In this document: piece by piece, positions 11,959 through 64,000 of the stretch
Layout: each line of letters starts with the position of its first letter
Position numbering within the stretch: position 1 is the first letter of the stretch
NCBI GenBank assembly: GCA_033032865.1
Contig: JAWHQI010000228.1
Coordinates: 2,704,501 to 2,768,500, forward strand
DNA: 64,000 nucleotides
Reading direction: 5' to 3'
DNA from: Dactylorhiza incarnata
Lineage: Eukaryota > Streptophyta > Magnoliopsida > Asparagales > Orchidaceae
Notes under the pieces: generated by a model
What the model was told of the DNA's origin: nothing
The model's database searches: none
The model's input: only the letters and a program-made list of their open reading frames with translations
Made by a program: the position numbers and the translations under genes

Positions 11959-13111
11959 TGTTGAAATTGTTGAAGTGAAGTGGAAGGGAGTCAGGCCGGT
12001 CTGAAGGCTGGAGACCGCAGAGACCGTGCGGTCTGCGCTGGTGCTCTGGCAGTTTGGTTCTGGCGATCTGGTGAGATCGGCAAGCTCGCTTCTTGGGTTT
12101 GGTCGTTGGCGACCTGTTGCAGGTTGTTTCCGATCTTATTATGGGCGGTTTGTTCTTGGTAGATGCGGGTTATTCCCGAGTAGATCTACTGGTTTGCTTT
12201 GCCCCCTTATTGGAAGACCGGGCGGGTTGTTCCTATATGGCCGTCTACCCGGGCGGTCTATCTTGGCGATCTGGCGACTTGGTTGAAGTCAGCCAGATGG
12301 TTCTAGCTTGCTCCTGGTGATCTAAGGAAGGAGCATTGTTGAGACCGCACGGCTTGTGCACGGTCTCGTGTTCGCGCGGCCTGTGCGCGATCTTGTCTAC
12401 TGATCTGCGTCTTTGTCGAGTGATCGTCCAAGAGGTCTGTTCGCGCGGTCTGTCTTTTGAGACTGTTCGCGATCTGATGGGTGGTGACTGTATCCCGGTT
12501 TGTGCGGTGACGACATCCGTCCACCCGCCTATAAATAGGGGGTGCATGGCCCGTCATTCCTAACGAGAACTGTTTGCGGTCAGCAGGGTGCGGTCTCCTT
12601 CCTTGGTGATATCCGGTGGCTCGAATAAACAGTTCGTCTGCGGTCTGTCAGCGAACTGGGTTATTGTGTTCTTGTGTTGTTCCCAGCGGACTCAGGGATC
12701 AGGCGACCTTCAGCGGTTAGGCGGTCTGAGTTGCAGTCTGGCGACAGCTTCAGTTCCTTGTTCCAATAAGCTTCAGTTCGTGCGGTCTGAGGTGCGGTCT
12801 TACAGTGCTGGCAGTCTGTCCAGTTTCTGTTCGTGCGGTCTCAGGGCAAGCCGGGTTGAGTTCTAGAGTGGTGCGGCTTGTGCGGTCTGAGCTTGTCTAG
12901 CCGCCAGCTCTGTCCTTTTTGTGTGTTTTGTTCTTCTCATCTCCGTGATTCTGATGAATCATGTCTCGCCATGTATACCTCGCATTGTAAAGCAGTTCTG
13001 TTTCAGTAAAGATTTCTTATGTTGTTGTTTTGGCATTGTGGTTGTTTGGCTATAACTCTTGTTGATACAACTCCTGCTTACTCCTAAACGGTCCAATCAA
13101 AAATTTTAACA
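11959..13111 (+). repeat. 5' LTR of the copia element
   Basis: It runs from TGTTGAAATTG to TTTTAACA (1,153 bp). It is rich in the words GCGGTCT and GCGATCT and their complements, including the palindrome AGACCG-TG-CGGTCT at 12021-12034. A candidate TATA box CTATAAATAG is near 12530. The short frames on both strands within the LTR are not genes. Confidence 0.95.
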
Positions 13112-13122
13112 TGGTATCAGAG
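13112..13122 (+). promoter_or_regulatory. Primer-binding site of the copia element
   Basis: TGGTATCAGAG directly abuts the LTR end and is complementary to the 3' end of initiator-Met tRNA. Confidence 0.92.
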
Positions 13123-13200
13123 AGAGGTTTCTAGAGTGGATAAGCAGTGATCAACTAGAGTTGCCATCGTCTTTGTGAAGAAGAGACCACATAGATTGCC

Positions 13201-15776: not shown

Positions 15777-17285
15777 TGGGACATTGCTATGCAAGAAGAG
15801 ATGGCAGCTCTCGAGAAGAATGAGACCTGGTCTATTTTGCCCAAGCCCAAGGGCACCACTCCTATCACTTGCAAATGGGTTTTCAAGCAGAAGAAGAAAG
15901 CTGACGGCAGTATCGAGCGGTACAAGGCTCGCCTTGTAGCTCGCGGGTTCTCACAGCAGTACAAAGAAGATTATGATGAGACCTTTAGTCCAGTGGCAAA
16001 GATGACTTCAGTTCGATTTGTTATTGCCTTGGCGGCTTCGTGTGGTTGGGAGATTTTGCAACTCGACGTGAAGAATGCTTTCTTATACGGTGAGATTGAC
16101 AAGGATATCTTCATGATCCAACCGCAAGGCTTCATCTCGAAGGAGTATCCAGACTACGTTTGTAAATTGAAGAAGGCCTTGTATGGGTTGAAGCAAGCGC
16201 CTCGGGCGTGGTATGGGAAGATAGCAGAGTATCTCTTATTATGCGGATTCGTTGCTTCAGACTCTGACTATAGCTTGTTCATCAAGAAGGAGGGGGTGCT
16301 TCGGGTGATTGTGCTGCTGTATGTGGATGACATGATTGTCACAGGGAATTCGAAGGAGGCGGTAGCAAGGCTGAGAGCTAAGCTTGCTAACAGATTCGAG
16401 ATGAAGGATCTGGGGGAGCTTCACCATTTTCTTGGACTCGAGGTGCAGAGGCGGGAGAGCGGAGTGCTCATTTCTCAGGCTAGCTATGCGGAGCGGATTG
16501 TTCAGCGATTCGGCATGGAGGAAGGGAAGAGCAGCTCTATACCTCTGGAGCAACATCATAAACTTCGGAAGGATGAGGGAAGAGTTCTATCTGATCCGTT
16601 GGTGTTCCGAGCTCTGGTTGGGAGCTTGATCTACTTGACGATCACAAGGCCAGATATTGCTTATGCAGTTGGCAAGGTGAGTCGGTACAAGGCGGAGCCA
16701 CGGAAGGCTCATCTTCTAGCGGCGAAAGGTATATTGAAGTATGTGAAGTCGACCTCTGATTTGGGTCTCCTATATAGAAGAGAGTCAAGCTTGGAGTTGC
16801 ATGGATATATGGATGCTGGTTATGGGAGAGACGTGGATGATCGGAGATCAACGTCTGGTTATGTCTTTATGACGGGCCCCACAGCTATCTCTTGGTGCAG
16901 CAAGAAGCAAGACTCGGTGTCTGTATCTACCACGGAAGCGGAGTACAAGGCTTCGGCCTTGGCAGCTCAGGAAGCCGTTTGGCTTAGGAGGTTGGTAGAG
17001 GACGTTCATCAGGAGGTTCGAGGTCCCACTATGCTATGCGGGGACAATGAGAGTGCTCTCAAGCTGGTTAATAATCCAGTCTGTCACGCGAGGACCAAGC
17101 ATATAGAGATTGAGCACCATTTCATTCGTGAAAAGCTGTTGGGAGGATCTCTTATGGTCGAGCATGTTCGGAGTGCGGACAATGTCGTTGACATCTTCAC
17201 AAAGCCGCTGGCGAAGGGACCGTTTACTCGGTTAAGGGGGTTGCTCGGGCTAGTTTCCACTTCCCACTTCAAGGGGGAGTGTTGA
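15777..17285 (+). CDS. Copia reverse transcriptase and RNase H section
   Basis: The section is open from after the TAA to a TGA at 17283-17285, which lies 3 bp inside the 3' LTR. RT begins ALEKNETWSILPKPKG and CKWVFKQKKKADGSIERYKA, then LDVKNAFLYGEI, YGLKQAPRAWY and the catalytic YVDDMIVTG box near 16320. RNase H shows YGRDVDDRRSTSGYVF, STTEAEYKASALAAQEAVWL and the HIEIEHHFIREKL tail. All key RT residues are intact, so this is the best preserved enzyme in the window. Normally it is part of a single gag-pol polyprotein, so translation on its own is unlikely. Confidence 0.92.
   Translation, partial: WDIAMQEEMAALEKNETWSILPKPKGTTPITCKWVFKQKKKADGSIERYKARLVARGFSQQYKEDYDETFSPVAKMTSVRFVIALAASCGWEILQLDVKNAFLYGEIDKDIFMIQPQGFISKEYPDYVCKLKKALYGLKQAPRAWYGKIAEYLLLCGFVASDSDYSLFIKKEGVLRVIVLLYVDDMIVTGNSKEAVARLRAKLANRFEMKDLGELHHFLGLEVQRRESGVLISQASYAERIVQRFGMEEGKSSSIPLEQHHKLRKDEGRVLSDPLVFRALVGSLIYLTITRPDIAYAVGKVSRYKAEPRKAHLLAAKGILKYVKSTSDLGLLYRRESSLELHGYMDAGYGRDVDDRRSTSGYVFMTGPTAISWCSKKQDSVSVSTTEAEYKASALAAQEAVWLRRLVEDVHQEVRGPTMLCGDNESALKLVNNPVCHARTKHIEIEHHFIREKLLGGSLMVEHVRSADNVVDIFTKPLAKGPFTRLRGLLGLVSTSHFKGEC
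17268..17279 (+). promoter_or_regulatory. Polypurine tract of the copia element
   Basis: TTCAAGGGGGAG immediately precedes the 3' LTR. Confidence 0.9.
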
Positions 17286-18430
17286 AATTGTTGAAGTGAA
17301 GTGGAAGGGAGTCCGACCGATCTGAAGGCTGGAGACCGCAGAGACCGCGCGGTCTGCGCTGGTGCTCTGGCGGTTTGGTTCTGGCGATCTGGTGAGATCG
17401 GCAAGCTCGCTTCTTGGGTTTGGTCGTTGGCGACCTGTTGCGGGTTGTTTCCGATCTTATTATGGGCGGTTTGTTCTCGGTAGATGCGGGTTATTCCTGA
17501 GTAGATCTACTGGTTTGCTTGGCCCCCTTATTGGAAGACCGGGCGGGTTGTTCCTATATGGCCGTCTACCCGGGCAGTCTATCTTGGCGATCTGGCGACT
17601 TGGTTGAAGTCGGCCAGATGGTACTAGCTTGCTCCTGGTGATCTAAGGAAGGAGCGTTGTTGAGACCGCACGGCTTGTGCGCGGTCTCGTGTTCGCGCGG
17701 CCTATGCGCGATCTTGTCTACTGATTTGCGTCTTGGTCGGGTGATCGTCCAAGAGGTCTGTTCGCGCGGTCTGTCTTTTGAGACCGTTCACGATCTGAAG
17801 GGTGGTGACTGTATCCCCGTTTGTGCGGTGATGACATCCGTCCACCCGCCTATAAATAGGGGTGCATGGCCTGTCATTCCTAACGAGAATTGTTTGCGGT
17901 CAGCAGGGTGCGGTCTCCTTCCTTGGTGATATCCAGTGGCTCGAATAAACAGTTCGTCTGCGGTCTGTCAGCGAATTGGGTTATTGTGTTCTTGTGCTGT
18001 TCGCAGCGGACTCAGGGATCAGGCGACCTTCAATGGTTAGGCGGTCTGAGTTGCGGTCTGGCGATAGCTTCAGTTCCTTGTTCCAATAAGCTTCAGTTCG
18101 TGCGGTCTGAGGTGCGGTCTTGCAGTGCTGGCAGTCTGTCCGGTTTCTGTTCGTGCGGTCTCAGGGCAAGCTGGGCGAGTTCTGGAGTGGTGCGGCTTGT
18201 GCGGTCTGAGCTTGTCTAGCCGCCAGCTCTGTCCTTTTTGTGTGTTTTGTTCTTCTCGTCTCCGTGATTCTGATGAATCATGTCTCGCCATGTATACCTC
18301 GCATTGTAAAGCAGTTCTGTTTCAGTAAAGATTTCTTGTGTTGCTTTTTTGGCATTGTGGTTGTTTGGCTATAACTCTTGTTGATACAACTCCTGCTTAC
18401 TCCTAAACGGTCCAATCAAAAATTTTAACA
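17280..18430 (+). repeat. 3' LTR of the copia element
   Basis: It is 1,151 bp and collinear with the 5' LTR. The palindrome here is AGACCG-CG-CGGTCT at 17342-17355; its spacer differs from the 5' LTR copy while both arms are unchanged. The flanking TSD ATCCA is at 18431-18435. Confidence 0.95.
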
Positions 18431-40960: not shown

Positions 40961-41983
40961 TGTACCACCCGTATTCGGCGAGTAGAGCCGAAGGTACCTG
41001 GCGAGTAGGTCGGTGCCTCTCTCGGCAAATAGAGCCGAAGTTACCTGGCGAGTAGGCCGGTGCCTCTCTTGGCGAGTAGAGCCGAAGGTACCTGGCGAGT
41101 AAGTCGGTGCCTCTCTCAGCGAGTAGAGCCAGGAGGCCTGGCGAATAGGCTGGTGCCTCCATCGGCGAGTAGAGCCAGGAGGCCTGGCGAATAGGCCGGT
41201 GTCTCCCTCGGCGAGTAGAGCCAGGAGGCCTGGCGAATAGGCGGTGCCTCCCTCGGCGAGTAGAGCCAGGAGGCCTGGCGAATAGGTCGGTGCCTCCCTC
41301 AGCGAGTAGAGCCAGGAGGCCTGGCGAATAGGTCGGTGCCTCCCTCGGCGAGTAGAGCCAGGAGGCCTGGCGAATAGGCCGGTGCCTCCCTCGGCGAGTA
41401 GAGCCAGGAGGCCTGGCGAATAGGCCGGTGCCTCCCTCGGCGAGTAGAGTCAGGAGGCCTGCCGAATAGGCCGGTGCCTCCCTCGGCGAGTAGAGTCAGA
41501 TTTTGGGGAACAGAATCGTCCGGGCACCCATGGTGGTCTGCCTATAACCCTTCGGGACAGCAGAGTCTGGCTACCTGCAGACCAATTTGGGGTGCATTTA
41601 GCAAAATAGTAGGGCGGGGTTACGCTATCCGCAGGTCATCTGGACCATTCTACCCCTGGGAAGTCTTCCCCTATAAATAGGACCCGTTATGTCTCAGAAT
41701 AGCACAAATCCACCCCCCCCCCTGTGAGAGCCTGTGCTTTCTTCCTTGTGCTGTCTGAGACAGGCTCAGCTTCTGCTTTTTGGGAGGGAAATCAAGTGAG
41801 ATTTCCGGGTTAGTGGCGGGACCTCCTCGCTGCAGCCAGTGGGTCATTCATAGGGAGCTACCTACCAACCGATGAGGGTCAGTTCTTAGCTTGGAATACT
41901 TAGATCTAGGGGTCCGACGAAGAGAGAAGTAACTCAAGATACTCCCCAAGTCTCGAACAGGTTGGACCGGTATCCGGGTTCCA
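40961..41983 (+). repeat. LTR of the Tat-like element
   Basis: It starts TGTACCACCC exactly where homology to the interrupted LTR stops, and ends GGGTTCCA before the PBS region, about 1,023 bp. A TATA box CTATAAATAG is at 41671-41680. Its first half is a minisatellite. Confidence 0.7.
40975..41510. repeat. 46-bp minisatellite within the LTR
   Basis: About 12 copies of a 46-47 bp unit occur, with GGCGAGTAGAGCC, AGGAGGCCTGGCGAATAGG and CCGGTGCCTCCC in order. The first three copies carry the variant GAGCCGAAGGTACC. Frames through it are repeat artefacts. Confidence 0.95.
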
Positions 41984-46980: not shown

Positions 46981-48038
46981 AATCAATTCTTAAACTGAAA
47001 AACTTAGAGATCCAACCAGCGATCTCTAACATCCAAGTCCTGGAGGAGATCCAGCCGGCGATCGCGAATATTTCAGATTGCGAAAATCTCTTCTAAAACT
47101 GAAAACTTTCTAAAGATCCCACCAGCAATCTCTAACATCCAAGTCCTGGAGGATATCCAGCCGGCGGTCTCAAATATTTCAGATCGCTGAAAACCACATT
47201 TTGAACAAAACTGGAGATCCCACTAGCAATCTCTAACTTCCAAATTCTGGAGGAGATCCAGCCGACGGTCTCAAATATTTTAGATCGCTGAAAACCACAT
47301 TCTGAACAAAATTAGAGATCCCACCAGCAATCTCTAACATCAAAGTCTTGGAGGAGATCCAGCCGGCGGTCTCAAATATTTCAGATCACTGAAAACTACA
47401 TTATGAATAAAACTCTGGAGATCCTACCAGCAATCCCTACCATCCAAGTCCTGGAGGAGATCAAGCCAGCGGTCTAACCATATCCAAGATCGCTGAAAAC
47501 CACATGAAATGAAATGGAGAACTCAACCAGCAATCTCTAACATCCAAGTCCTGGAGGATATCAAGTCGACGGTCTCAACATATCCATGATCACTGAAAAC
47601 CAATTGAAATGAAAGGGAGAACTCAACCAGCAATCTCTAACATCCAAGTCCTGGAGTGGATTAAGCCGGCAGTCTCAACATATCCAAGATCATTGAAAAC
47701 CACTTGAAATGAAATGGATAACTCAACCAGCAATCTCTAACATCCAAGTCCTGGAGGAGATCAAGCCGGCGGTCTCAACATATCCAAGATTGCTGAAAAC
47801 AAGTTGAAATGAAATGGAGAACTAAACCAGCAATCTCTAACATCCAAGTCCTGGAGGGGATCAAGCTGGCGGTCTCAACATATCCAAGATCGCTAAAAAA
47901 CACTTGAAATGAAATGGAGAACTCAACCATCAATCTCTAACATCCAAGTCCTGGAGGAGATCAAGCCGGTGGTCTCAACATATCCATGTTCGCTAAAAAC
48001 CACTTGAAATGAAATGGAGATGTCAACCAGCAATCTCT
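46981..48038. repeat. 100-bp tandem array, left block
   Basis: About 10 units of roughly 100 bp contain AACATCCAAGTCCTGGAGG, AAGCCGGCGGTCTCAACATA, AGATCGCTGAAAACC and AACTCAACCAGCAATCTC. Each unit carries GCGGTCTC and an inverted GATCGC. The array is cut by the solo LTR at 48039 within CAATCTCT. Confidence 0.95.
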
Positions 48039-51000: not shown

Positions 51001-53071
51001 CCTAAACCAGTGGTCAAAGTTTCACACTACTTGGATGAGATTTGACCACCTAATTCCATCATGTGCACTTTTGATCTAGTTTGACCTAGATTGACCAAAC
51101 TTGGGTTAACTAATTGCCCAAACAAATCAGTCCCAATTGTGCTGAAATTTTTACCAGGTTCATACAATAACCCTAAAGAGCACCCACCAAAATTTGGAGG
51201 GAATTGGAGGTCATAGGCCTTATAATTAAATAATATATGAATTATGAAATTATTACAAAAACCTTAAAAAATGTTCTCTTATAATTCCCTTCTTTGGGTA
51301 TGTTAAGGGGGTTGATACAAATAGTCTAGGTTTCAATTTTCATGCCCATATCATTTCCCAATCAAATGTTATTCAAGAAATGGTGGATGTCCTACACTAG
51401 GGACCAGTCCCACCAAAATGGACCTACAGGGAGCTACAATACTCATTTTGGGCTGAAACAAATTTTAACATAAAGTAGACTCTAAGGGATACAACTTTAG
51501 TGTTGACCACTTTTTCTGTAGAGGGCTCTAGATATTTACTATAATAATTTCTATCTACTGCCAGTAATAATACAAAAAATGAGATAATAATAATAATTGT
51601 TATTAACGTTTCCTGTACAGGAAATGGACGCTTCTGATTATGTCTTCTACGGTGAGCCAACAGCCCTGATCTCTTGTTGCTGCAGATTTTCCAAGAGCTT
51701 CCACCGGACACCTCCCTAGCCGGCCACCGCCACCACCACCTCCGTTGAGGTGGTGGCTAACGTCTGGCGGCGGCACGGCCGTCGGAGGGGCGGTTTCTGG
51801 CAAACCCGACCGAGATATTTTCATGGAATTTCAAATTTTTGCAAACTTGTATCGACCTCAATTGAGCCCGATTTATCACCTATTTTTATCTAAGATATAT
51901 CCACAGAGAGAGAGAGAGGAGAAAAACCAGACCTCGAATCGGGCTCGAGGGTGGTTGTTTCTCAGATTTGTCATGGTCGCCCCCTTCAAGTTGTGCTCCT
52001 TGCCGATCTCTTGATTCTCCACCAAATACAATGATCTAAGACTCAATTTCAACTGATATCCCCATTTGAAGGCGATGGGCGGGTCAATTTGAGGAGGGGA
52101 GGCTTAATGGTGGAGTGCCATTAATGGCCATTTCGGTTTCATGTAAAATTCTTGAATCCTCCACCTGATGGCATGGGAAAGGCTGGAAAATGTCTTAGAA
52201 TTCAATGGGGAGATGAATGGAGGATGTGGGGAGATGAATGGGGGTTGAATTTGCCTTGAATGTCATGAATTCACCTTGAATGGCCAATTTTTCTCTCTTT
52301 TCAAATTGGGGGAACTCCCAATTTCTCTCTCCTAGCCACCCCCTCCAGAAATTGGATGGCATTTCATGTAATTTCAATGGTGACTAATCATTTGGGCCAT
52401 TGAAATTGGGCTTAGCCCAAAGGGATTGAGCTTTGGGCTTAATTAACCCAATTTAGGCAATATTGACCAAATGTTGACTTTTGTCAAATTGGTGAAATTA
52501 ATTAGGCCCAATGGGTCAATGTTGACCCATTGGCCTCTCTTAGTGACTAATGGAACTTGGGGAAAGTCAATTGGTCCAATTGAACCCTAATTGACCCTAA
52601 ATATGGTGGTTTGACTTATTTGGGGCTAGGGTTGACTTAGGTCAAATTGGCCAAATTGGTGGCCACATTATGAGGATTGTTAGTCCATTGGGTCCCTAAT
52701 ATCCTTATAAGGTTAGGGGCAAGGTCAATTTGGCATGGTGGAGGCCAATTGACCATAATTAGGCTACCTTGGGCAATTTAAGGTTAGGGTTGACTTTGGT
52801 CAATTTGGCATCTTTGGTTGACCCCAATGGGTCCTAGATGCTCTAAGGGACCCTCCAAAGGGTTAGGTGTGCCATGGTGGGGTCAAAGGGTCAAGATGAG
52901 GCCCTAAAGTCCAACCCTAAGCTTTGTAACTAGAAATTGCTATTTGCAAACCAATGTGCTCTTCTCCATCAAGCTTAAGGCCAAGTGATCTCTTCAAGCT
53001 TCCTAGGGTTTTTTCATGACCTAGTCATGACAAAACAAATCTATGGGTCTAGTTGTTTGGGGTATGTTACA
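48039..53071 (-). mobile_element. Complete 5,033-bp solo LTR of the Tekay-like family
   Basis: Ends are TGTAAGACCC and ATGTTACA (TG...CA). The 5-bp TSD TCTCT is present at 48034-48038 and 53072-53076, and the host tandem array continues across, so the boundaries are exact. There is no internal region, PBS or coding frame, so it is a solo LTR left by LTR-LTR recombination. On - it starts TGTAACATACCCC, the typical Tekay/Del LTR opening. It is the reference copy for the family in this window. Confidence 0.93.
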
Positions 53072-53830
53072 TCTCTAACATCCAATTCCTGGAGGGGATC
53101 AAGCCGACGGTCTCAACATATCCAAGATCGATGAAAACCACTTAAAATGAAATGGAGAACTCAACCAGCAATCTCTAGCATCCAAGTCCTGGAGGGGATT
53201 AAGCCGGCGGTCTCAATATATCTAAGATCGCTGAAAACCACTTGAAATGAACTAGAGAACTCAACCAGCAATCTCTATCATCCAAGTCCTAGAGGAGATC
53301 AAGTCGGCGGTCTCAACATATCCAAGATCGCTGAAAACCACTTGAAATGAAATGGAGAACTCAACCAGCAATCCCTAACGTCCAAGTCCTAGAGGGGATC
53401 AATCCGGCGGTCTCAACATATCCAAGATCACTGAAAACCACTTGAAATGAAATGGAGAACTCAACTAGCAATCTATAACATCCAAATCCTGGAGGAGATC
53501 AAGTCGGCGGTCTCAACATATCCAGGATCGCTAAATCCCACTTGAAATGAAATGGAGAATTCAACCTGCAATCTCTAACATCCAAGTCCTGGAGGAGATC
53601 AAGCCGGCGGTCTCAACATATCACAGATCGCTGAAAATCACTTGAAATGAAATGGAGAACTCAACCAGCAATCTCTAACATCCAAGTCCTGGATGAGATC
53701 AAGCCGGCGGTCTCAACATATCTAAGATCGCTGAAAACCACTTGAAATGAAATGGAGAACTCAACCAGCAATCTCTAACATCCAAGTCATGTAGGAGATC
53801 AAGCCGGTGGTCTCAACATATCCAGATCGC
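53072..53830. repeat. 100-bp tandem array, right block
   Basis: About 8 further units of the same 100-bp repeat continue the left block after the solo LTR. Confidence 0.95.
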
Positions 53831-54825
53831 AAAAAACCAGAAAAAGTGAAACTGGCGGTCTCTCAAAATTCAAACCGCCCCATCATGATTTAGGCGGCGG
53901 TCATAGATGTTTTCGACCGACCCTTGGCTATCCACAATCCAATGATTATTCAAGATTTATAGAACAAAGATTATCTACAGGGAAGGTGTGGTCATGTCAC
54001 GGAGGCTGTTCCGACATTGCTTTCCCTAGAAGATCATTAAGACTGTAACAATGTTCTCTCACAATGCATGACAGAGCTGAACATTCAACTCGACCTCCCT
54101 TGGTTCTGAGGTGTGTCAGTTGTCAACAACGACCCGACATTCTAAACATCCATACTTTGAGCTTGGCGTGCTACTGCTACACAAATGCGAATTCTCCCCG
54201 CAACCTGTGGTCCTAGCCGATTTACACCTCAAGCTTCAAGTCAAGGAGGATGAAATAGAATCCATTGATTTCTCCCCTGGCCGGATTCCAGCCTTCTGAA
54301 TCAATTCTTCTTTGGTGCTTCCTTAAGAGAATACAACCTTATCATCTTAATACTTGAAAGAAGAAAAACAAAAGAAGAAATGAAATAAAAATACATGTTT
54401 TCAAGAAAAGGGAATCTTGAGATCATCTCCGCTCCATGTATGAGATAGCTCTTCCCTTTCATAAATTTGGAGGTGATATGCACCATTGTTAAGAACTTCT
54501 TTGATGATAAACGACCCTGCCCAATTATAATGTGCCTTTTCACTGAGTCAACTCTTACTGCTGCATCTATTTTCTTGAAGATTAAATTGGCAACAGCAAA
54601 TTCTTTGACTTTGATGCTTTATCGAGGTTTTTGTCCATTCTTCTTTGCTTATTACAAGTAAAGGTGGAAAAGAGAAGATGCAAAAGAGTCAAAACAAAAA
54701 GGGAGGTATCCAAAATAAGAAACAAAATGACATTCTATCTCATCCGTAGTCTATACACCTATTTTATTGAGAGAAGTTCTTTGCTTTGTGACATTGTCTC
54801 TAATGGAGGAGTGGTCATCATCCGT
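53831..54825. other. Spacer between array and gag
   Basis: It includes GGCGGTCTC and AACCGCCCCATC words. A segment at 53985-54032 (GTGTGGTCATG, CGGAGGCT, CCGACATTGC) recurs at 63942-63982, linking the two regions. 54300-54825 is AT-rich, with no convincing frame. Confidence 0.55.
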
Positions 54826-55527
54826 TTACTGAGCAAAATAGTCTTGTAATTTTCCTGCCTTCAGTAATTGGTTTACTAATTTTGCCAATTTTTTGAGGGC
54901 ATGACAGTCCTCTGTATCATGGACAATTTTTGAATGATATGTGCAGAAGAGTTCTTGATCGTGATTTCTGACCTTAGACTTTATAGGATGAGGTCCTCTA
55001 GACTCTGGCTCATTTTGAATATTTGGAAAAACTTTCATGGAAGTATTAAACTGAGTATACTTTTCTGGATAACTTTTGAATTCAAGTGTTCTCGGATTGT
55101 CAGACGGAATAGGACAAGCTCTTAGAAATTCAGGTGATATATCTTGTTGTGGAGGTTGAGTGGATGTATTTTCTGGAAAAGTGTAAGATCTGCAGTATTT
55201 ATCTTGCAGAATGTTTTGTGACGAAGACGGATGTTGATAAAAAGATTTCCTTTGCCGCTTTTGGGTTGTCTGAGAAAAAACAAAACCAGGATCTGTTGCC
55301 TCTATTTCAACAACTTGATTTGCTATCCTGATAAGATGTTCATAAGACTCGGGCTTATTTTGGCTGACTGTAGATTTGAGAAGGCCTTCTTTCAACCCAT
55401 TGATTAAGGCAATTTTATACAAGTTCTGATCAACATCAAAAATTTCAAGTATTTCTCTTTGAAATTTGGCAATGAAGTGAGCAAGTGTCTCATCATCTCC
55501 TTGCTCGATCTGAAAGAGAGCTGATGA
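54826..55527 (-). pseudogene. Tat-like gag, C-terminal part
   Basis: The - strand translation contains SSALFQIEQGDDETLAHFIA and INGLKEGLLKSTVSQ, the second half of the Retrotrans_gag fold. Near the end FCTYHSKIVHDTEDCHALKK, a His/Cys-containing segment typical of Tat-lineage gag, leads to a tail QLLKAGKLQDYF. The frame stops at 54826. The N-terminal half is missing: at 55528 the sequence changes to an LTR-like insert, so the longer frame running into it is chimeric. Protein role when intact: particle formation and RNA packaging. Confidence 0.82.
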
Positions 55528-56888
55528 TGTAGGCCACCGGAAATGAGGCGGTCGCACGCGACTACGAACTAAAACTATTATCGCTCCGCTCTTCCCAAAC
55601 CAACTTAAACGCATCCCTCGACTATATTTATTATAAATTTTTGTACGCGTACGGTTAGCAACTCCGAGACAAGATCGAATCGTCGGCGATAAGCCGGGAT
55701 CCGTCAAGCTAAAGGGACGAATGTTTGCGTCTGGACAAGCGAATGTGCTGTACCAAAGAATATCCTCCGAAAACAAGACTTCGGAAAATAGGAAGGTCTT
55801 CCCCAGCAAGAGCAAAAGAGGATCGCCACTCCTCGTCGAATAAACGATAAATCCTAGAGCGTCCACTATCCCAAATGAAAATAAACGCGAGCAAGATAGC
55901 GCCGAGAAAAATCCATCACAGATCTATACCACCACAAATAACCTTTAAGAGAAATCTCACAATAAGTAGGAGGCGTTACCCTTCCCGGAATCGTAGATCC
56001 AGGTTGTAGAAATCTTAGATCGTTCACGGTGGTGGTCGCCGGAGGGGAATCCTTGAAGTAGAGCACCATCGCCTTCGAATCCGGCTGCCACGGGCAAGTC
56101 CAAAACGTCTTGAGAGAGGGCCAAAAACTGGAAGGAGGAGGGGCTGTTTTTGTGGAGCTCGGCCTTTGAGTGGTGGAGCAAGGAATAGCTGGCTGTTGGA
56201 ATGAGAGGGTTGACCAAGATGCAAGGAGGGGGTGGAGAGGAGGTGGTCGGCCAAGAAAGAGTGGAGCACGAGAGAGAGAGGGCGGACAAGAACAAGGAAG
56301 GGGGATAGGAGATGGTCGGCCTAGGTGCTTGCCGAAAAACCTAGAGGGAGGGGAGGAAGAGAAGAGGGCCGGCGGCCAAGGGAGGAGGAGGAGGGGATCG
56401 GCCTGGTGCTGGTCGAAACTTTACCTGGAGGGAAAGTAGGAGAGGGCGGCTAGGGTAGAGAGAAAACGAGAGAGAGAGAGGAGTCGGCCTCCTTGGTCGA
56501 TCGAGAGAAAGAAAGGGAGAGGGAGAGTCGGCCTCCTTGCCGATCGAGAGAAAGAGCGAGAGAGGGGGGTGCGGCCTCCTTGCCGATCGAGAGAAAGAGG
56601 GGGAGAGGGGGGAGTTCGGCCTCCTAGCCGATCGAGAGAAAGAGGGGGAGAGGGGGACTGAGCACAAAGAGAGATTAGTTTAGGGTTTTTTTTTTATTTT
56701 CATCAAATCTAATTTCTAATACAACATGAGGCCTTATATAGGCAAGCCAAACAAGGTGGCTATATGCAGCCCCAAAATTAAAAATAAAGCTTGGGCATGG
56801 AAATTAAAGAATGTCCCAATTAAAATTACAAAACACAATTAAAAATAATTAATAATTATAATGAAGTTATTATAATTATTAATTGCAG
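55528..56888 (-). mobile_element. Probable LTR or short element inserted in the Tat-like gag
   Basis: It begins (on +) TGTAGGCCACCGG exactly where gag homology stops. On - it has a TATA box TATATAAGG (56733-56741), a CT-rich leader with a 50-bp tandem repeat and a CTACA end, i.e. promoter, R and U5 order. The right end is uncertain. TG...CA termini would fit 56888, but no TSD matches GATGA, so the boundary or the event is unresolved. Confidence 0.45.
56470..56660. repeat. 50-bp tandem repeat
   Basis: Four copies of a GGCCTCCT(T/A)GCCGATCGAG unit followed by AGAAAGAG purine runs. They create Ser/Arg/Pro-rich frames on -, which I do not regard as coding. Confidence 0.85.
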
Positions 56889-58073
56889 GTCTTGCGTCGC
56901 GAGCGGAAGTGGTAGCGGCGATGGCGGCCGTCGCGGTTGGAGTGGCGCCGTCATCCGCCATCGTCATGGACCAAATGTGCTCCAACATGAACCGTGCCGA
57001 CTCGAACATAGACCATCAAGCCGGCTCTAATAATCTCGCTGCATCTTCCAACGTAGTCTTCAAATTTGCCGCCGCGATCAAAGTAATGCGTCGACGTGGA
57101 ATCACAAACACGATCACAACCATCTGGCGGGTCCTTGCCTCCATCAATCCTCCCCCACTCAAAAACACTCATCACCGATGAGTGGGAGTGAAGGAACCGG
57201 TGTAGCAGAGCAGCAACCTGTAGAAGTACGTCCGAGGGAGCGGGCCGTGAGGGTGGCCCATCCGGCCAGGGTGGCAAGAAGCAGCAATGGGCCCAGCTTG
57301 GCCCCAAAGAAGTGTCGACATGTGTCAACCTGTCATGCAAAAAGTAGTGCCCAAGGGCCTCGATCATAGCATAGGAAAAAGAAGAGGAAAGTGCTAAAAC
57401 ATCAATAGACATCATACCTCCAGAGATCACCATGAGCGTGAACGACATGCTACCCAGCTCACCTCTCAACCCAACAGAATTTTTAGTGGAGGGAAACGAG
57501 AAGAAAGCTAAATGTAGTGGCTCTAGAAAAAGTGAAAGACATCTCGAAACACTAAAAATGGGGTTGGGGCCCCGCTCAGCAAAATTTTTCGATGGTAAAG
57601 TGAAAGTTTCTAGCATTCCAAATATTCGACGCAAAGTACCGAAACTACTAACATCGCTCTCTAAATTGCCAAGAGGCAACAGTCTAGGGGAAAGATCCAC
57701 TAAAACCGAATCGAGCATAAAGCGGGATGCTCCATAGGGTGCGGTGAAAATAGAGTAATTGGACCCAAGTGGGTCGGCTAGCAATGTAACATCAAGTCCA
57801 GGTGAGTGAAGACATCGTGGAACATATGATAAGTCATAATATAAACTTAAATCTATGATCGTCCTAAGGAGTGGTGGGTCAGTGGGTGGATAAGGACTCC
57901 AACAATTCGTGACGTCGTCACCTAAATTTATTTCAGATATGCTAGATCTCCTAACGTGAGTGGTGTCATGATCACAAAGCCTAGGGTGATCATGCATAAT
58001 AGAGTCAGCTAACATAGGAAGGATAACCAAACAAAACCACTCAACACGCCCAGCAGGGGTAACAGGCTCCATG
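56889..58073 (-). other. Leader-like region of the Tat-like element
   Basis: This lies between the PBS-like site and the insert in gag. A long - strand frame (58102 to 56951) crosses it. Its translation has no motif I recognise and begins inside the LTR/PBS junction, so coding status is doubtful. From ATG at 58069 it would be about 370 residues. Confidence 0.4.
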
Positions 58074-58092
58074 CCTGTTGGTGCCAAAAATG
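58074..58092 (-). promoter_or_regulatory. Candidate PBS and LTR terminus
   Basis: On - the order is GGTACCA (LTR end, CA at 58092-58091), TTTT, then TGGCACCAACAGG. This is the LTR-spacer-PBS layout of Tat/Athila elements and is shared in form with 45053-45069. Confidence 0.5.
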
Positions 58093-58657
58093 GTACCTCC
58101 AAAATTCACACTAAAAGGGATGGGAGAAAACTGCGAAGTGCAGGTTACTAAGACAGAAGATGCTGGAAACAAAAGGAAAAACAATCACGAAATGGCGATC
58201 ACGAAGAAATGAGACCGCTTACACAGGTTGTAAGCTGGAGCCTCGGAGCCAAAAGTGCTTTTCTGGTACCCCTACCCCTCTATTTATAGACGAGGGGGCT
58301 GCCCAAACGGGCAGAACTAAAAAACTACGGGCTGCCCGGGGTACAGGAGAGCCAGGGAAGGGAAATGGGGTACAAATAACAAAAATAACAAAAATAAGAA
58401 AAGCGACCAGACCGCTTGAGCCGGCGATCTCGCACCATCTTGATCGCTGGGTACTTGGAAAATCAGACCAGGCTGAAGGCTGGCGATCTCGACGATCACC
58501 TAACTTGAGACCGCTGAGACCGGGAAAAACGAACGATGAGAGGAGGTCGCGGGCTTTCTGGGCGAACATAATCCCCGCACATTTTTAAGTTGCATCTGGA
58601 ACTTTGAAAATGTAAGCTTTGACAGCTGAGACCGCGACCACCATTAATGCGGCTTGG
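58091..58657 (-). repeat. Candidate Tat-like LTR, right limit unknown
   Basis: Oriented - by the PBS-like site and by a - strand TATA box (TCTATAAATAGAG, about 58280-58292). About 190 bp would form R-U5. The right edge toward the + strand gene is not defined. It is dense in GCGATCTC and GAGACCGC words. Confidence 0.4.
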
Positions 58658-58668
58658 TCTATAAATAC
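58280..58668. promoter_or_regulatory. Divergent promoter with two outward TATA boxes
   Basis: The - strand TATA box TCTATAAATA is at 58281-58290 and the + strand TATA box TCTATAAATACC is at 58659-58670. The roughly 370 bp between them hold at least eight GCGATCTC, GATCGC, GAGACCGC or AGACCGC words, for example near 58404, 58422, 58483 and 58506. The + side drives the gene starting at 58755. Confidence 0.6.
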
Positions 58669-58754
58669 CGGCTGAAAACTTCATTTTGCAAGACATTGAG
58701 GAACTCCACTATTCGAGCGGTCTTTGATAATTGGGCAGGTGCGACCTAGCAAAG

Positions 58755-60988
58755 ATGACTATGCTCGATCTCTTAAAAGCTCTCCCATCGAAAGCGAACT
58801 CTCCTGGAAAAAAGGAAAGTGTCAGCTCAAAGAAAGGAAAGAAGGCACCGAAGATCTTAACAAAAGTGAGCACTTCAAAGGAGATCGCCCGATCTCCGTT
58901 AAAGAAAACTGAGCTTCCTGAGGGCTCGATTGTGCCGGTCTCTGTTGCTTCTGATCCGTCTAACACTTCTTCAGATCCTGTATGGAAATTGCCTGACTTT
59001 TCCATTTCTTTTAATTGTCAGAAATCCCTGGAGGCACTGAATCAAACGTCTTCCAAGCTTCCTGAGACCGCCTCCACCGAGGTCATTCTGGCTGGGCTGC
59101 GTCAGAAGGGAGCTGAGGCCGAATCCTTGAGGCAGAAGATCGCTGACCAGGAGATCGTTGCAAAGGGCAAGAAGAGAAAAAATACAAGTCCATCTAGTTT
59201 GACTTATAAGAGGAGCAGAAGAAATGAGGAAGGAAAAGACGTGACCGCCATGGAGGCGACCAGATTTTCTGAATCCATTGACCTGGAAGACTCTGCTGAG
59301 TTTCAGAAGGTGAATGCTAAGGGCGATCTCCCCTTCCTTCCCGCGGTCTCAACCTTACCAAGAGAGGATGATTCTGGATTAATCGCCTACCTTGATGAGG
59401 TTTCTTCTAACAATTCATCTTTTTCATCATTGCAGGTGTTGGATCCCTTAGAGGCTTCAGCTCTCAGAAATGCCGCCGTTGATGAGGAGATCGCGGACAG
59501 GGAGAAGGAGATCGCCGACGCAGCGATCAAGGCAAAGGAAGAGGAAAGGAAAAAGATGGAAATGGAAGAGATGGTGAAGAGGAGGAAAGAAAAAGAGGTA
59601 GAGGAACAGAGGGAAAAAGAAGAGAAAGAAAAGGAGAAGGAAGAAAAAGATAAGAAAGAAAAGAGGGAGAAGAAGGAGAAGAAAAAGAAGGAGGATGAGG
59701 AGAAGAAGAAAGACAAGGAGAAGAAAGAGAAAAAGGAAAGAGAGGAAGAGGAGAAGAGGAGAGAGGCGGCTAAGGCCGTCGAGGAAGAGAAGAAGAAGGA
59801 GGCGGTCAGAGTTGCTGAGGAGAAAGCGGCTCTGATCGCTGAGGAGAGGAAGAAAGAGGCGGTCAGGGTCGCTGAGGAAAAGGCGGCCCTGATCGCTGAA
59901 GAGAGGAAAAAGGCTGAGGTCTTGCAGACTTCGGACAAAAATGGTGAGGAGATCGCGGAGAAGCTGCAGATCGCTAAGGAGAAAGCTGTACTTTCTAGCG
60001 GTCTCCCGGATGATTCTCTTCAGGGAGATCGCTCGAACAAGGCTGCAGCAGATCGTGCGGCGGCGGTCTCGATTTCACGAACTGGTAAGAATAAAATGAT
60101 TCTCCAGTCAGCTGAGTTCCTTCCATTACCTACAGTTCGTTTTGCTTCTCCTAAAAGAAAACACGAGATCGTTTTTATTGAGACCGACAATATCCTCTTA
60201 AGTAACGAAGAATTAAAAAGGAGAAGAAAAGAAGGAGAAAAAACGCAGAAAAGAGGTTTGGAAAGAATGGATCTGGAGCGCTTAAGGGGATCAGATCATC
60301 TTTCTCTGACCGCAGATCCCGCGGTCACTAAAGATATCAGAAGAGCTTTACGTGACTGCGGTCTCGACTTCTTTCCAAGTACTCTTTCTGTTTATTTAAA
60401 AAGCTTATCTGATCATATGCTCATGATTGACATAACCCATCTCCTATGACCGCAGATAACAAAAATGATGAGATCGAGGAGGGAGAACTTCCTCAGCCCA
60501 TCGAGATCTCCCCTCAGTTAACCAACATCCTTAACCCCATATTTGAGGATGTTCGTTCTATGCTGATGAGGGAGCGGACTCAGAACGATCAGATCCGTGA
60601 TCTCGAAGAAAGATTGCGTTCCAATGAGAAGAGGATTCGTGAGGAATGCGATCTGAGGGTTGCCGAGATCGCGCGAGCTCTGAAGAAGGCTGAAAAAGAG
60701 GCTGAATACTATAGGGGAAAAGCTACGGCGCTATCCGCGGAGAATGAGAGGCTGAGGAGCAGTCACAGAAAGATGCTGATGCGACCGGGTACCTCCAGCG
60801 ATCATCCAGCGGAGAGACCGCAACCTGAAATCGTACTGATCCCCATGGAGCAGGTGGACAAGGAAATGTCGAAAATCCACCGGTCTGCAATGCTGGCTAA
60901 TCACAGCCTGGTGTCGGTTATGGCCGCAGTGAACGATATGCAAGATGTCGCAGCTCATTTAGGGAGAAACAGGCCTCCTAGGAGATGA
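58755..60988 (+). CDS. Cassette gene 1: Lys/Glu-rich coiled-coil protein, intron-containing
   Basis: The first ATG after the TATA box (58755) opens a frame to 60449. A second frame, 60446-60988, overlaps its stop as ATGA. A predicted intron 60379-60455 (GTACTC...CCGCAG, 77 bp, phase 1; alternative donor 60361) removes the stop and joins both frames into about 718 residues. Seen in order: a basic N-terminal part, a Ser/Pro stretch, KGKKRKN and KRSRR nuclear-signal-like clusters, a long Lys/Glu coiled-coil segment (about residues 250-400) with a tandem EAVRVAEEKAALIAEERK repeat, and a C-terminal coiled coil (RDLEERLRSNEKRIREE). No enzyme motif is seen. A further possible in-frame intron is 59310-59435. 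I do not recognise the family; Tat elements often carry unrelated extra ORFs. Confidence 0.65.
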
Positions 60989-60999
60989 ACATTTAACTT

Positions 61000-61015
61000 G
61001 AGACCGAGCGGTCTC
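61000..61015. promoter_or_regulatory. 16-bp palindrome downstream of gene 1 stop
   Basis: GAGACCG-AG-CGGTCTC, 11 bp after the TGA of gene 1. The identical 16-mer follows gene 2. Confidence 0.8.
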
Positions 61016-61284
61016 TAGATTTGAACAATATGTTTTGTAAAATTTTACTGTTATTTTTCTATATATTTGTGGCTGTTTTGATTTTAATGTTTTGTGCGGT
61101 CTTGATTTGTTAAGTTCTGATCTCTTTATGCCTGGGTTGCTTGTATTGCTGCTGTGTTTTTTATTGATTGAGATCGCCAACTATAGTATGCTGTCATATA
61201 ACTTTGCATAGGTCGAGCGGTCTGAACATGTTTTGGCTGGGAGGTCTTCAAGATGTAATGATTACGAAATGACCCTTCGTCTTC
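61016..61284 (+). promoter_or_regulatory. Intergenic region, 3' end of gene 1 and promoter of gene 2
   Basis: T-rich probable 3' UTR, then GCGGTCTTG (61096), GAGATCGCC (61170) and GAGCGGTCTG (61215) words upstream of the TATA box of gene 2. Confidence 0.5.
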
Positions 61285-61293
61285 TATAAATAG
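61285..61293 (+). promoter_or_regulatory. TATA box of gene 2
   Basis: TATAAATAG, 35 bp before the ATG at 61328, after TCGTCTTC. The leader would be very short. Confidence 0.65.
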
Positions 61294-61327
61294 CCGTCTT
61301 CATGACCTTTATTTTACGCTTTCTTGA

Positions 61328-63056
61328 ATGCGCTCTAAACATCGATCTCATCGATCGCTAAAAATGGTGTGCGCTCGTGCTTCTTCTGCCACCATCTTTC
61401 TGAATGCCGATCACAAACAAGGTCGTCTATCAAAGGATGAATATATCGAGTTTATAAAGAAATATATGATCCAAACTCAGGTAGTTGTGAGACCGCCAAC
61501 TGAACAAGAAAGGATGAACTTTGCGGAGGAGAAAAAGTTTATTATTCCCATCGATCACTTTGAAAATGGGTTAGGATTCCCCTCCCATGGGAATGGCTTG
61601 AGATCCTGAATTATTACGGCTTCGTGCTTGCCCAGCTGGCCCCGAACTCCATCGGCCTAGTTAATGTCTTCATCAATTACTTGAGATCGGAAAGAGTGAA
61701 GTTTACAATGAATCTGTTCCGCGCAACCTTCACCGTGAAGATCTTGAAGGAAGGCAGGAAGAAAGAAGAGTTCAAAGGGTTGATGTACTTTTCAGCAGAC
61801 GGAATAAAAATCCTGAATCTTCCAAATAAAATCTCTTTTTGGACAGAGAGGTTTCTTGTCTTTGAAGGTGACCTTGGCGGTCTCAAAAACTCGCCTTCTC
61901 CGCGACCTGACAGTATTTTTAAGAATATAAAAGCGGTCTCAGAACAGGAGCTGAAAATCATGGCTTTCTTGGCGGGCAAGAGGATCGATCTTGTTCATTA
62001 TCTAGCGATCTGGCCCGAGATCGCCGAAATTGTTCCGGCTGAAAGTAAGCTTTTCTTGCGGTCTCGAAATAATTTCTTTTCATACCTTTTGTATGCCTTC
62101 CTAACTTTTTCCCGCTTTTTAGCGACCTTTGCGGTCCCTGTTCAAGATCCTATCTCTCCAGCTGCAGAAGTTCTCACTCAGAGGGAGAGGAGGCTGAAGC
62201 GTGAGGCCGACGTGTTCGGCACTACCTCTGAGACCGTTGAACGAGATTTCCCTTTGATCGGTTTCAAAAGAAGAATGAAGGATATCAAAGGAAAACCCCT
62301 CCTCAAATGGGCGGCCAAAGAAAAGTCTGTGAAGGTGTCCACTGATCTGCCCCTGTGGAGCGGAAAGGTGACCCGTCACGCATATGCGGTCACTTCGGCT
62401 TTGTATGGGAAAAAGAATACAAATGAAATACTGAATATAGAGACCGATGCGCTCCCAGACCTCTGTGCCCAAGTGATCGCTAGAAGTACAATCTTAAATC
62501 ACCATATGGGGCGGTCTCTTCGCAGCGCTCTGGATGAAATAACTGTCTTGCAAGAAGAAAGAAAAGTGAGAATTTTATTTATATCTTACGAACGCGTTAC
62601 CTATGATCGCGCGGTCTAACATATATCTCTTTTTTATAGCAATTTGAAAAAGCAGCTTATGACCCTGAAAATCCAGCTTTTCAGAGGGCTATGATGCATC
62701 ACATTAAAGAGACCGCCGACCAGGTGCTGAACGAGGTTCGAGGCCGAGGTGGATTCACCGAAGAATATAAGGTTGTTACGTTTGCCGATCTCTTCCCTGA
62801 CGCGGCACAGAGGATTGAAGAGCAATCTGCAACTGCTGAAGAGACCGCGGATGTTGCTGATGAGACCGCTGGTCAAGACGAAGATGTTGTGATCGAAGAT
62901 GAAGAAAGCGGAAGCCGCTATACCCTGGGTCTGGATTCCAGTTCGAGCTCAAGCTCTGGATCTAGAATTCCAGGGAAAAGCTTAGAAGAATCTTCCGCAG
63001 AAACTGATTCTTCTTCTTCAAGCGAGCGGTCTTCTAAGAGATCAAAGAGAGAGTGA
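61328..63056 (+). pseudogene. Cassette gene 2: gypsy-type transposon-domain-like protein, three exons, one frameshift
   Basis: ATG 61328 opens MRSKHRSHRS. Two introns are predicted: 62045-62122 (GTAAGC...TTTTTAG, 78 bp, phase 1) and 62566-62639 (GTGAGA...TTATAG, 74 bp, phase 0), both with CTAAC 15-25 nt before the AG. Splicing joins LQEERK to QFEKAAYDPENPAFQRAM and gives about 525 residues. A 1-bp loss in a C-run near 61580 breaks exon 1 between GLGFP and the ILNYYGFVLAQLAPNS segment. That segment, with YFSADGIKIL and WTERFLVFEGDL, resembles the plant 'putative gypsy type transposon' domain (Pfam PF04195, from memory). The C-terminus is acidic, then Ser-rich, ending KRSKRE. Function is unknown. 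Confidence 0.65.
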
Positions 63057-63086
63057 ATTGTACAAACTTTCCTTTTTCCCCTTTTG

Positions 63087-63102
63087 GAGACCGAGCGGTC
63101 TC
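63087..63102. promoter_or_regulatory. 16-bp palindrome downstream of gene 2 stop
   Basis: GAGACCG-AG-CGGTCTC, 30 bp after the TGA of gene 2; identical to 61000-61015. Confidence 0.8.
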
Positions 63103-64000
63103 GTTGTAATTGAAAATTCAGAATATATACAAAAATTAGATTCTGTTATGTTGTCTGTGGATGAGTTTATTTTTGATGCATATATTTGTTCCTCTGAGTT
63201 TGAACTCGGCATTCGATCTCAATGCCTTAGGCTTGTTACAATTTTATATCATCATTAAAGGATTTCAGGTGGCGATCTCTTGGAAAAAACAAAAAGGATC
63301 TTGAAAGAAAGACTAATACTTTGTATAAATAAAAATACTCTGCGATCTCGAGATAATCAGATCATTGAAAGACATTCAGTAACTCGACTGTGATCAGAAA
63401 ACCAACTTATTTGCAATAGTCATGCGGTCTCACATTATACAAATCGCAACATAAGGAATTAAACTTTTGGGTGTTCGGTGCCCAAATGACTGGAAATCCG
63501 TCTGACGACCCCTTTGATAACCAAAACTATTACTTGAAAAGAAAAACAATAACTCTTCATGAATCTCCAGTTTAGCGATCACATTATATTCAGACCGCCC
63601 TTTTTTGAAGAAAAATCCCAACTCACTTGATGGGAGACAGAGCATCAAGATTATTCCATGTAACTTTGAATAACGGGGAATACCAGAATCTCGATCTTAC
63701 TGAGACCGGGTCGAGCTCTGTCAAGTCGGCATAAGAGCTTTCTAAATAGCGACCTCAATTGTCCTGAAAAAGTCATGTCCGGCGATCGTAAATGACTCAT
63801 CACTCTTTGGAGAAAGTTGGAAAGAAAAACATGCGGTCTCACAAATTTCTGACCGCCCGATCCCAGTACAAAGGGATGAATAAGATTTTTCTTTTTGAAG
63901 TAAGAAGATATGAAAATGGGATCTCTAAGAATGATCCAAAAGGAATGTGTGGTTATGCCGCGGAGGCTATACCGACATTGCCTCTCTTTTTAAACAAAGG
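63103..64000. other. 3' UTR and spacer right of the cassette
   Basis: ATAAATAAAAATA near 63327 could serve polyadenylation of gene 2. Further right are isolated GCGGTCTC, GCGATCTC and GACCGCCC words, and the conserved block GTGTGGTTATG, CGGAGGCT, CCGACATTGC (63942-63982) shared with 53985. No convincing gene. Confidence 0.5.

Follow-up and report, generated by a model that had tools for sequence, protein, structure and literature searches.

The 64,000-nucleotide window analysed here contains part of a Ty3/gypsy retrotransposon in which the short word GCGRTCT is scattered through the LTRs, the leader and an antisense two-gene module. This scatter, the absence of the word from pol and its retention between subfamilies represent a new observation of this study. 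Comparison of genomic copies shows that the word is preserved by selection acting on DNA. Based on the analogy with VANC anti-silencing, we suggest that GCGRTCT may be the target code of a DNA-binding regulator encoded by the element itself.

The carrier element and its antisense genes

The module belongs to an LTR retrotransposon whose paired TG..CA LTRs (98.99% identity over 494 bp) are bordered by the 5-bp TSD ATGCC. While the 3' LTR lies inside the window (Table 1), the 5' LTR is located outside it, ~14 kb rightward at about L009:8123-8614, and is directly followed by the right TSD copy at L009:8615-8619. Both LTRs contain TATTTATA, a TATA-like word for LTR transcription. To the right of the module, Retrotrans_gag, RVT_1, RNase H and integrase domains were found on the - strand (L009), with the integrase after RT/RNase H, the gypsy order. 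The LTR pair, the TSD, the TATTTATA word in each LTR and these domains together orient the element on the - strand. This copy has disrupted gag-pol frames and an internal 1,764-bp duplication, and by eye no TGG-type PBS start was seen beside the 5' LTR.

Both + strand genes are thus antisense and sit between pol and the 3' LTR, the place of the antisense TRP28 gene in Retand elements. The pol-3' LTR region (about 6.0 kb) and the LTR (493 bp) fall inside the Retand ranges of 2.9-6.6 kb and 315-1,194 bp given in PMC11963269. For the internal region, where the same source gives 7.4-12.9 kb, the internally duplicated window copy measures 13.6 kb and the C166 copy about 11.7 kb. Based on TRP28 position and the lengths of the LTR and the pol-3' LTR region, the carrier is a Retand-type Ty3/gypsy element on the - strand.

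An earlier note on this DNA had proposed an antisense, intron-retaining accessory two-gene module in a Tat-like retrotransposon. This core reading holds for a Tat/Retand-type element: LTR pair, TSD and - strand domains bear it out, as does the linkage of the module to LTR and interior in all three other copies with compared flanks. It had also assigned the gag, leader and PBS on the left to the element. Since the left LTR begins at 58076 beside the TSD, these are parts of other nested elements, which rules out the module as part of the left-hand gag element. The insertion host is an outer element with TSD GCTGA, whose LTRs lie at 55525-57146 and 73931-75556 and which is itself nested in a third element.

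Table 1. Positions of the features discussed, in window coordinates
Feature	Position	Strand	Basis or remark
5' LTR of Ty1/copia element, 16 GCGRTCT sites (14 +, 2 -)	11959..13111	+	LTR pair, word count
3' LTR of the same Ty1/copia element, 17 GCGRTCT sites (14 +, 3 -)	17280..18430	+	LTR pair, word count
100-bp tandem array, 10 GCGRTCT sites	47007..48038		repeat and word count
Second stretch of the same 100-bp array, 11 sites	53071..53839		adjoins pol-end-like stretch 53889-54607
LTR of outer element (insertion host, outside module)	55525..57146	-	LTR pair; strand by eye from neighbouring purine-rich tract
TSD ATGCC, left copy	58071..58075		printed edges
3' LTR of the module's element, TG..CA	58076..58568	-	LTR pair and printed edges
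45 scattered GCGRTCT sites (LTR, exons, gene 2 introns 1 and 2, spacers)	58212..63839	24 +, 21 -	word count
TATTTATA, TATA-like word	58281..58288	-	motif position read
Gene 1 TATA box TATAAATA	58660..58667	+	motif; ATG at 58755
Gene 1 exon 1, rich in K and E, by eye resembling a coiled coil	58755..60378	+	open frame in window copy
Gene 1 putative intron, 77 nt GT-AG	60379..60455	+	borders, copy alignment
Gene 1 exon 2	60456..60988	+	weak coiled-coil matches; dN/dS 0.15-0.32
Gene 2 TATA box TATAAATA	61285..61292	+	motif; ATG at 61364
Gene 2 exon 1, TRP28 domain (PF04195)	61364..62044	+	profile match
Gene 2 intron 1, phase 1, holds one GCGGTCT	62045..62122	+	copy, protein and locus comparison
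Gene 2 exon 2	62123..62565	+	dN/dS 0.16-0.34; aligned with P0001 and P0007
Gene 2 intron 2, 74 nt GT-AG	62566..62639	+	copy alignment
Gene 2 exon 3, acidic/serine-rich tail	62640..63056	+	dN/dS 0.21-0.40

As described in the earlier note, each gene has a TATA box near its ATG (TATAAATA at 58660 and 61285), which is undamaged in 11/11 aligned copies for gene 1 and in 10/11 for gene 2. The three GT-AG introns and the ATGA frame overlap are likewise present in the sequence, and comparison of copies and proteins upheld the introns of gene 2, leaving that of gene 1 plausible. The profile searches proposed there recovered PF04195 in the gene 2 product and, for gene 1, coiled-coil matches below threshold.

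The exon 1 frame of gene 1 spans at least 564 codons in six of 11 copies, with dN/dS of 0.17-0.70 (six comparisons). Across the aligned copies, its 77-nt putative intron shows a single substitution and is free of indels, which makes this comparison uninformative. For exon 2, the weak coiled-coil matches included Taxilin (E 0.0019, under its cut-off), and no gene 1 homologue reached E <= 0.001 among 7,979 scored candidates.

In gene 2, PF04195 was matched with E 3.6e-06 in the window frame and 2e-09 in copy L003. The window copy has a broken exon 1 frame, on which the earlier note was silent; this break is absent from six other near-identical copies, and L004 and L008 are cut at other places. 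With exon 1 dN/dS of 0.07-0.08 (dS 0.88-0.97), codon comparison shows that gene 2 (TRP28) is under purifying selection. When L003 is compared with three copies of the other subfamily, 24-26 of 77 bases of intron 1 differ with 2-3 indels, and exon 1 has no indel over 681 columns. A 73-86-nt GT..YAG intron occurs at the matching place (447-478 nt past the TRP28 domain start) in 25 of 30 other TRP28 loci, two of the remaining loci having an intron-like word elsewhere and three none; the position recurs in two other TRP28 groups. Moreover, the 26 read-through residues of intron 1 are exactly missing from two orchid proteins, and intron 2 shows single-base indels across copies with the AG retained. 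These comparisons support the gene 2 introns as genuine and ancient. Being antisense to the genomic RNA, they would be kept in it.

The orchid homologues of gene 2 are Platanthera TRP28 proteins (P0001-P0017), annotated as hypothetical or transposon proteins and free of the intron 1 read-through. P0001 shows 36% identity over 96%, and P0007 continues into a stretch resembling exon 3 by eye. AlphaFold models of two of these homologues (mean pLDDT 53 and 61) gave no significant PDB match, and no DNA-binding protein fold was recovered from them.

Density, layout and preservation of GCGRTCT

Within the 5.4-kb module (58569-64000), GCGRTCT occurs 40 times, compared to 1.54 expected and a maximum of 6 in 300 dinucleotide shuffles. 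Each LTR holds five sites, and six more lie in the 621-bp stretch formed by the leader and the 5' gag frame, while pol and 3' gag have none over 7.5 kb (1.3 expected). The tested exon stretches contain 25 sites, against 6.6 expected and at most 14 in 2000 synonymous-codon shuffles. Both strands are used, the flanks are unconstrained and tandem duplication is absent; gaps of 15-22 bp show a weak excess (6 vs 2.3 expected, P about 0.02). Besides the LTRs of an unrelated Ty1/copia element, GCGRTCT also fills the tandem repeats of a third element (Table 1). The earlier note missed this scatter, the more notable feature of the region.

Between subfamilies, 138/5055 motif bases differ compared to 5089/84135 at other positions, based on pairs of six of the eight near copies (without the window copy L001 and L005) with all three copies of the other subfamily. 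Within the subfamily the corresponding counts are 107/5767 and 1725/98833 (seven of eight copies, L001 left out). Over gene 2 exon 1 and intron 1, L003 and L053 have all six sites in common, with 0/42 motif bases changed vs 140/717 of the others. In gene 2 exon 1 the motif shows no synonymous change at 8.3 sites, compared to 57-58% elsewhere (P about 0.0009). Beyond this exon block, motif bases changed just slightly less often than the others (129/4278 vs 2582/71250).

A different word marks a second family. Family A loci (nine of 11, without L001 and L005) contain 330 GCGRTCT sites vs 12.8 expected and no GCGAGTA, and family B loci contain 163 GCGAGTA sites vs 3.9 expected and 37 GCGRTCT vs 22.5 expected. 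In the B element, GCGAGTA lies in the LTRs, the module and the gag start, a layout similar to that of GCGRTCT in A; the 3.1 kb in between hold none, which at 0.22 expected is alone not significant. A third TRP28 group, represented by 16 loci, yielded neither a strong nor a convincing word: with simple runs excluded, 3/16 loci exceed 60 shuffles, and enrichment was just 3-5-fold for words picked after the fact.

Candidate readers of the word

We tentatively favour, at slightly below even chances, that the antisense TRP28 protein, alone or with the gene 1 product, reads GCGRTCT in its own element and keeps the promoters there open, with the copia element riding free. The antisense genes would be transcribed from their own promoters, independent of the LTR, and the TRP28 protein, perhaps complexed with the coiled-coil gene 1 product, would enter the nucleus. 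As putative binder, it would occupy the clustered sites of its own element, in LTRs, leader and module alike, and this occupancy would hold the element promoters open by anti-silencing and/or activation. Other TRP28 families would use a separate word, GCGAGTA; the copia element, with LTRs full of GCGRTCT, exemplifies the non-coding elements that would ride free on the TRP28 protein. Against an element-encoded binder stand the protein models without a DNA-binding fold, the third TRP28 group without a strong word, the small conservation margin beyond gene 2 exon 1, the sharing of GCGRTCT with the copia element and the many exonic sites, VANC targets being mainly non-coding.

A broader version is possible but rather doubtful: LTR retrotransposons would possess a VANC-like system of their own, in which antisense Retand TRP28/coiled-coil proteins read family-specific words of GCG plus a variable half (GCGRTCT, GCGAGTA), tandem repeats serve as binding arrays, and unrelated elements such as copia have converged on these words, so that groups of elements share a single anti-silencing protein encoded by one of them. 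Were the word bound by the element's own protein, element-encoded sequence-specific anti-silencing would reach beyond Mutator-like DNA transposons, to which the VANDALs belong, and extend to one of the most abundant plant retrotransposon lineages, with the copia element as a case in which one element makes use of another's regulator. A selected, family-specific word makes the function of the antisense genes directly testable by biochemistry; their role in Retand elements, and that of the tandem repeats, is treated as an open question in PMC11963269 and PMC7264820.

A serious rival, although we consider it somewhat unlikely, is a host transcription factor or chromatin protein that reads GCGRTCT, many elements, including Retand and copia, having evolved clusters independently as a means to gain transcription and the antisense genes acting otherwise. 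The copia element, with copia gag and RVT_2 in its interior, lacks a TRP28 gene and yet holds 16-17 sites per LTR, so that a host factor explains the sharing equally well. The motif bases in these LTRs are also preserved, diverging less than the remainder in 14/14 between-element comparisons, which are non-independent. Genome-wide, three-site clusters are extremely frequent (56,599 matches vs 88-3,971 for seven control words), in favour of the same rival. That any GCG word would cluster was rejected, as GCGAAAG gave 137 clusters vs 3,971 for its reversed control, a spread showing that control words vary widely. However, an activator would not need 25 exon sites, and a host factor leaves the different word and similar layout of the second TRP28 family unexplained. 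Furthermore, most copia sites share one orientation (14/16), whereas those of the module are balanced between the strands (24 and 21), which may reflect two different uses.

We regard it as improbable that the antisense proteins aid another step, such as import of the cDNA complex into the nucleus or its integration, with the word a separate cis-element, e.g. a chromatin boundary or replication feature. Such roles are proposed in PMC7264820, where the antisense product of Grande gene23 in maize is cited as nuclear, and the modelling without a DNA-binding fold agrees with them. However, the word covers module, LTRs and leader and shifts with the TRP28 family. Very little weight falls on a purely RNA-based role, named as a possibility in PMC7264820, in which antisense transcripts form dsRNA with the genomic RNA and the proteins are incidental: the protein is under purifying selection, with dN/dS of 0.07-0.08 for exon 1 of gene 2 and mostly < 0.4 elsewhere, and it can be aligned with orchid proteins at 36%. 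That the word merely reflects base or codon composition or local tandem duplication, to which a repeat-rich genome and the one control word at 3,971 clusters could point, is largely refuted by both shuffles, the unique flanks and the synonymous-site preservation, and has next to no credence left.

Comparison with known systems

Antisense TRP28 (PF04195) and coiled-coil genes in Retand elements are already known. Antisense TRP28 was reported in 97% of Retand clusters together with 11 antisense Smc domains (Vicient 2025, PMC11963269), a precedent for the pairing of coiled-coil and PF04195 proteins that the earlier note had not recognised, and DNA binding of TRP28 is predicted in the same paper. 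Its ORF survey agrees with our element in the antisense TRP28 but reports neither introns nor a scattered word, and the word "intron" is absent from its main text. What PMC7264820 says of Grande gene23 likewise does not describe a scattered word as in the present element, and the open-licence literature searched holds no description of such a word or of introns in Retand antisense genes.

The present system is not a member of the VANC family. VANC domains are DUF1985 and DUF287, neither of which Pfam scans showed in the frames of gene 1 or gene 2, whereas gene 2 carries PF04195. The words of VANC21, as described, are mainly non-coding and in one orientation, in contrast to the both-strand and often exonic GCGRTCT. 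What the two have in common is an element-linked accessory gene and a dense short word confined to certain elements, as well as words in tandem repeats and words specific to a family; VANC21 itself binds dense short words, often within tandem repeats (PMC5735166).

Boundaries and orientation of the element

At its right end the window contains the left-hand portion of a Retand-type LTR retrotransposon (Ty3/gypsy), whose two LTRs were found by self-comparison of the window extended into locus L009. The LTR edges read TG..CA, and the TSD ATGCC flanks the element at either side. To the right of the two-gene module, the minus strand encodes reverse transcriptase, RNase H, integrase and Retrotrans_gag domains, and both LTRs contain TATTTATA, a TATA word on the same strand. 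The left LTR is therefore the 3' LTR, and gene 1 and gene 2 are antisense, placed between pol and this LTR. The window copy has broken pol frames and carries a 1,764-bp block twice; the block is single in C166 and C33, the two element copies whose flanks are complete. Among the best 40 of 3,588 candidates, a DNA search placed the element, window included, at 32 places with 96-100% and at 8 with 91-92% identity.

The element is inserted within an outer element, which in turn interrupts a third one. The gag-like frame of the third element gave no gag match in a Pfam scan, and its continuation matches the gag side of the studied element at 67% over 303 bp. The earlier note had placed the genes antisense to a retrotransposon and tied them to the gag and PBS on their left; the placement holds, and the tie is wrong because those left-hand parts belong to the other, nested elements.

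Features of the window, of its continuation into L009 (coordinates above 64,000) and of a group B element on C2751
Feature	Coordinates	Strand	Remarks
LTRs of studied element	58075-58568, 72122-72614		98.99% identity
Gene 1	TATA 58660, ATG 58755, exon 1 to 60378, exon 2 to 60988	+	putative 77-nt intron
Gene 2 (TRP28)	TATA 61285, ATG 61364, exons 61364-62044, 62123-62565, 62640-63056	+	
Doubled block	64551-68357 (L009:551-4357)		RNase H-integrase end of pol
Outer element LTRs	55525-57146, 73931-75556		97.4% identical, TSD GCTGA
Gag-like frame	54826-55923		part of third element
Ty1/copia element	11959-18430		copia gag, RVT_2
Group B element LTRs	C2751:9083642-9084333, 9092521-9093223		97.2% identical

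Gene 2, its introns and a mosaic exon

PF04195, the TRP28 domain, was detected in exon 1 of gene 2 with E 3.6e-06 in the broken frame of the window copy and 2e-09 in the genomic copy L003. This exon is open from its ATG in 8 of 11 aligned copies, and gene 1 is open for at least 564 codons in 6/11. When three main-subfamily copies were compared with two of the other subfamily, gene 2 exon 1 had a dN/dS of 0.07-0.08; values were 0.15-0.40 in the remaining short exons and 0.17-0.70 in exon 1 of gene 1. Orchid homologues of gene 2 (2 matches in one search, 16 in another) were all from Platanthera; for gene 1, no relatives were detected among 7,979 scored candidates (E <= 0.001).

Between copies, 24-26 of the 77 bases of gene 2 intron 1 differ, with 2-3 additional indels, and exon 1 is free of indels. 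Two orchid proteins align to gene 2 with a gap of exactly the 26 codons of this intron. From a PF04195 search (best 150 of 28,242 candidates scored) we took 30 loci of other TRP28 groups; 25 have a 73-86-nt intron at the matching position, 18 of these in phase 1, as counted by hand with a donor pattern of our own setting and with many loci being near-copies of one another. Intron 2 retains its AG despite single-base indels, and the putative gene 1 intron varies little among copies.

Exon 1 and intron 1 (61364-62122) have a dS of 0.88-0.97 between subfamilies versus 0.02-0.11 in neighbouring exons, roughly tenfold. The simplest reading is an exchange of this mosaic block between long-separated lineages through recombination.

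Density and conservation of the word GCGRTCT

GCGRTCT occurs 40 times in 58569-64000, compared to a mean of 1.54 and a maximum of 6 in 300 dinucleotide shuffles. Each LTR has five sites and the 621 bp with the leader and start of the gag frame six, followed by none in the next 7.5 kb (pol and 3' gag; 1.3 expected). Module and LTR together hold 45 sites, 24 on the plus and 21 on the minus strand, with flanks that are apparently free except that the word tends to be followed by C. Exon stretches alone hold 25 (6.6 expected, maximum 14 in 2000 synonymous shuffles).

Counting every base of sites found in either copy of a pair, with pairs not independent, motif bases differ at 138/5055 between subfamilies (18 pairs) versus 5089/84135 elsewhere, and at 107/5767 versus 1725/98833 within the main subfamily (21 pairs). 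The mosaic block holds most of the conservation signal (9/777 versus 2507/12885); outside it the margin is small (129/4278 versus 2582/71250), although the non-coding DNA there shows 28/1379 versus 830/16132. Within the block, copies L003 and L053 share 6/6 sites, with 0/42 motif bases changed versus 140/717. At synonymous positions of exon 1, no change was seen at 8.3 motif sites, versus 57-58% elsewhere (P ~0.0008-0.0009 in each of three comparisons). Selection thus operates on the DNA word itself.

Family-specific words and their possible reader

The 30 PF04195 loci form two groups and one singleton, with the studied family (family A) apart. GCGAGTA ranks first among the words exceeding shuffles in 11/13 group B loci; with the loci pooled, it occurs 163 times (3.9 expected) and GCGRTCT 37 times (22.5 expected), versus 0 and 330 (12.8 expected for GCGRTCT) in family A. 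The group B element on C2751 has its TRP28 gene and gag on opposite strands and GCGAGTA in both LTRs, module and gag start, with none in the 3.1 kb between (0.22 expected, alone not significant); the frames scanned yielded no pol domain. The third TRP28 group showed no clear word (3/16 loci above shuffles, simple runs excluded). A tandem array at 40975-41499 in the window contains 14 GCGAGTA.

Across the window and twelve 10-kb loci, GCGRTCT is concentrated in copies of the element, the studied one included, in LTRs of copia elements and in the arrays at 46-48 and 53 kb; it is rare elsewhere, with small groups (at most 9 per kb) in flanks, some being other LTRs. The two copia LTRs hold 16 and 17 sites, mostly in one orientation, and 13000-16999 none; copia sites are less divergent than the rest in 14/14 comparisons between different copia elements. 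A related gypsy element contains a single 100-bp tandem array that ~5 kb of inserted DNA splits into two stretches with 10 and 11 sites (47007-48038, 53071-53839); the consensus unit of the array contains GCGGTCTC and AGATCGC 18 bp apart. Genome-wide, three-word clusters with short gaps number 56,599 for GCGRTCT and 18,802 for GCGAGTA, both inflated by overlapping matches in arrays, versus 286, 414, 161, 421, 185, 88 and 137 for seven control words and 3,971 for an eighth, GAAAGCG. Among the matches listed, such clusters of both words were plentiful in arrays and in LTR-like pairs ~5 kb apart, which suggests that each word is common to several element families.

The best explanation for a symmetric, dense, family-specific word that selection maintains in coding as well as non-coding sequence is a binding site on double-stranded DNA. 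We favour the element's own TRP28 protein as its candidate reader on two grounds: different TRP28 families go with different words, and VANC, the anti-silencing proteins of VANDAL elements, set a precedent (PMC5735166). The TRP28 protein would bind the word, possibly with the gene 1 product as a partner, and may act as an anti-silencing or activating factor; its expression and effect are ones we infer. The copia LTRs could be free riders on this system; a host factor recognising GCGRTCT is an equal candidate for them, as word-filled LTRs fit it just as well. The module itself is a Retand antisense accessory unit, and such units are already described in PMC11963269 and PMC7264820; the new part is the scattered word rather than the antisense module.
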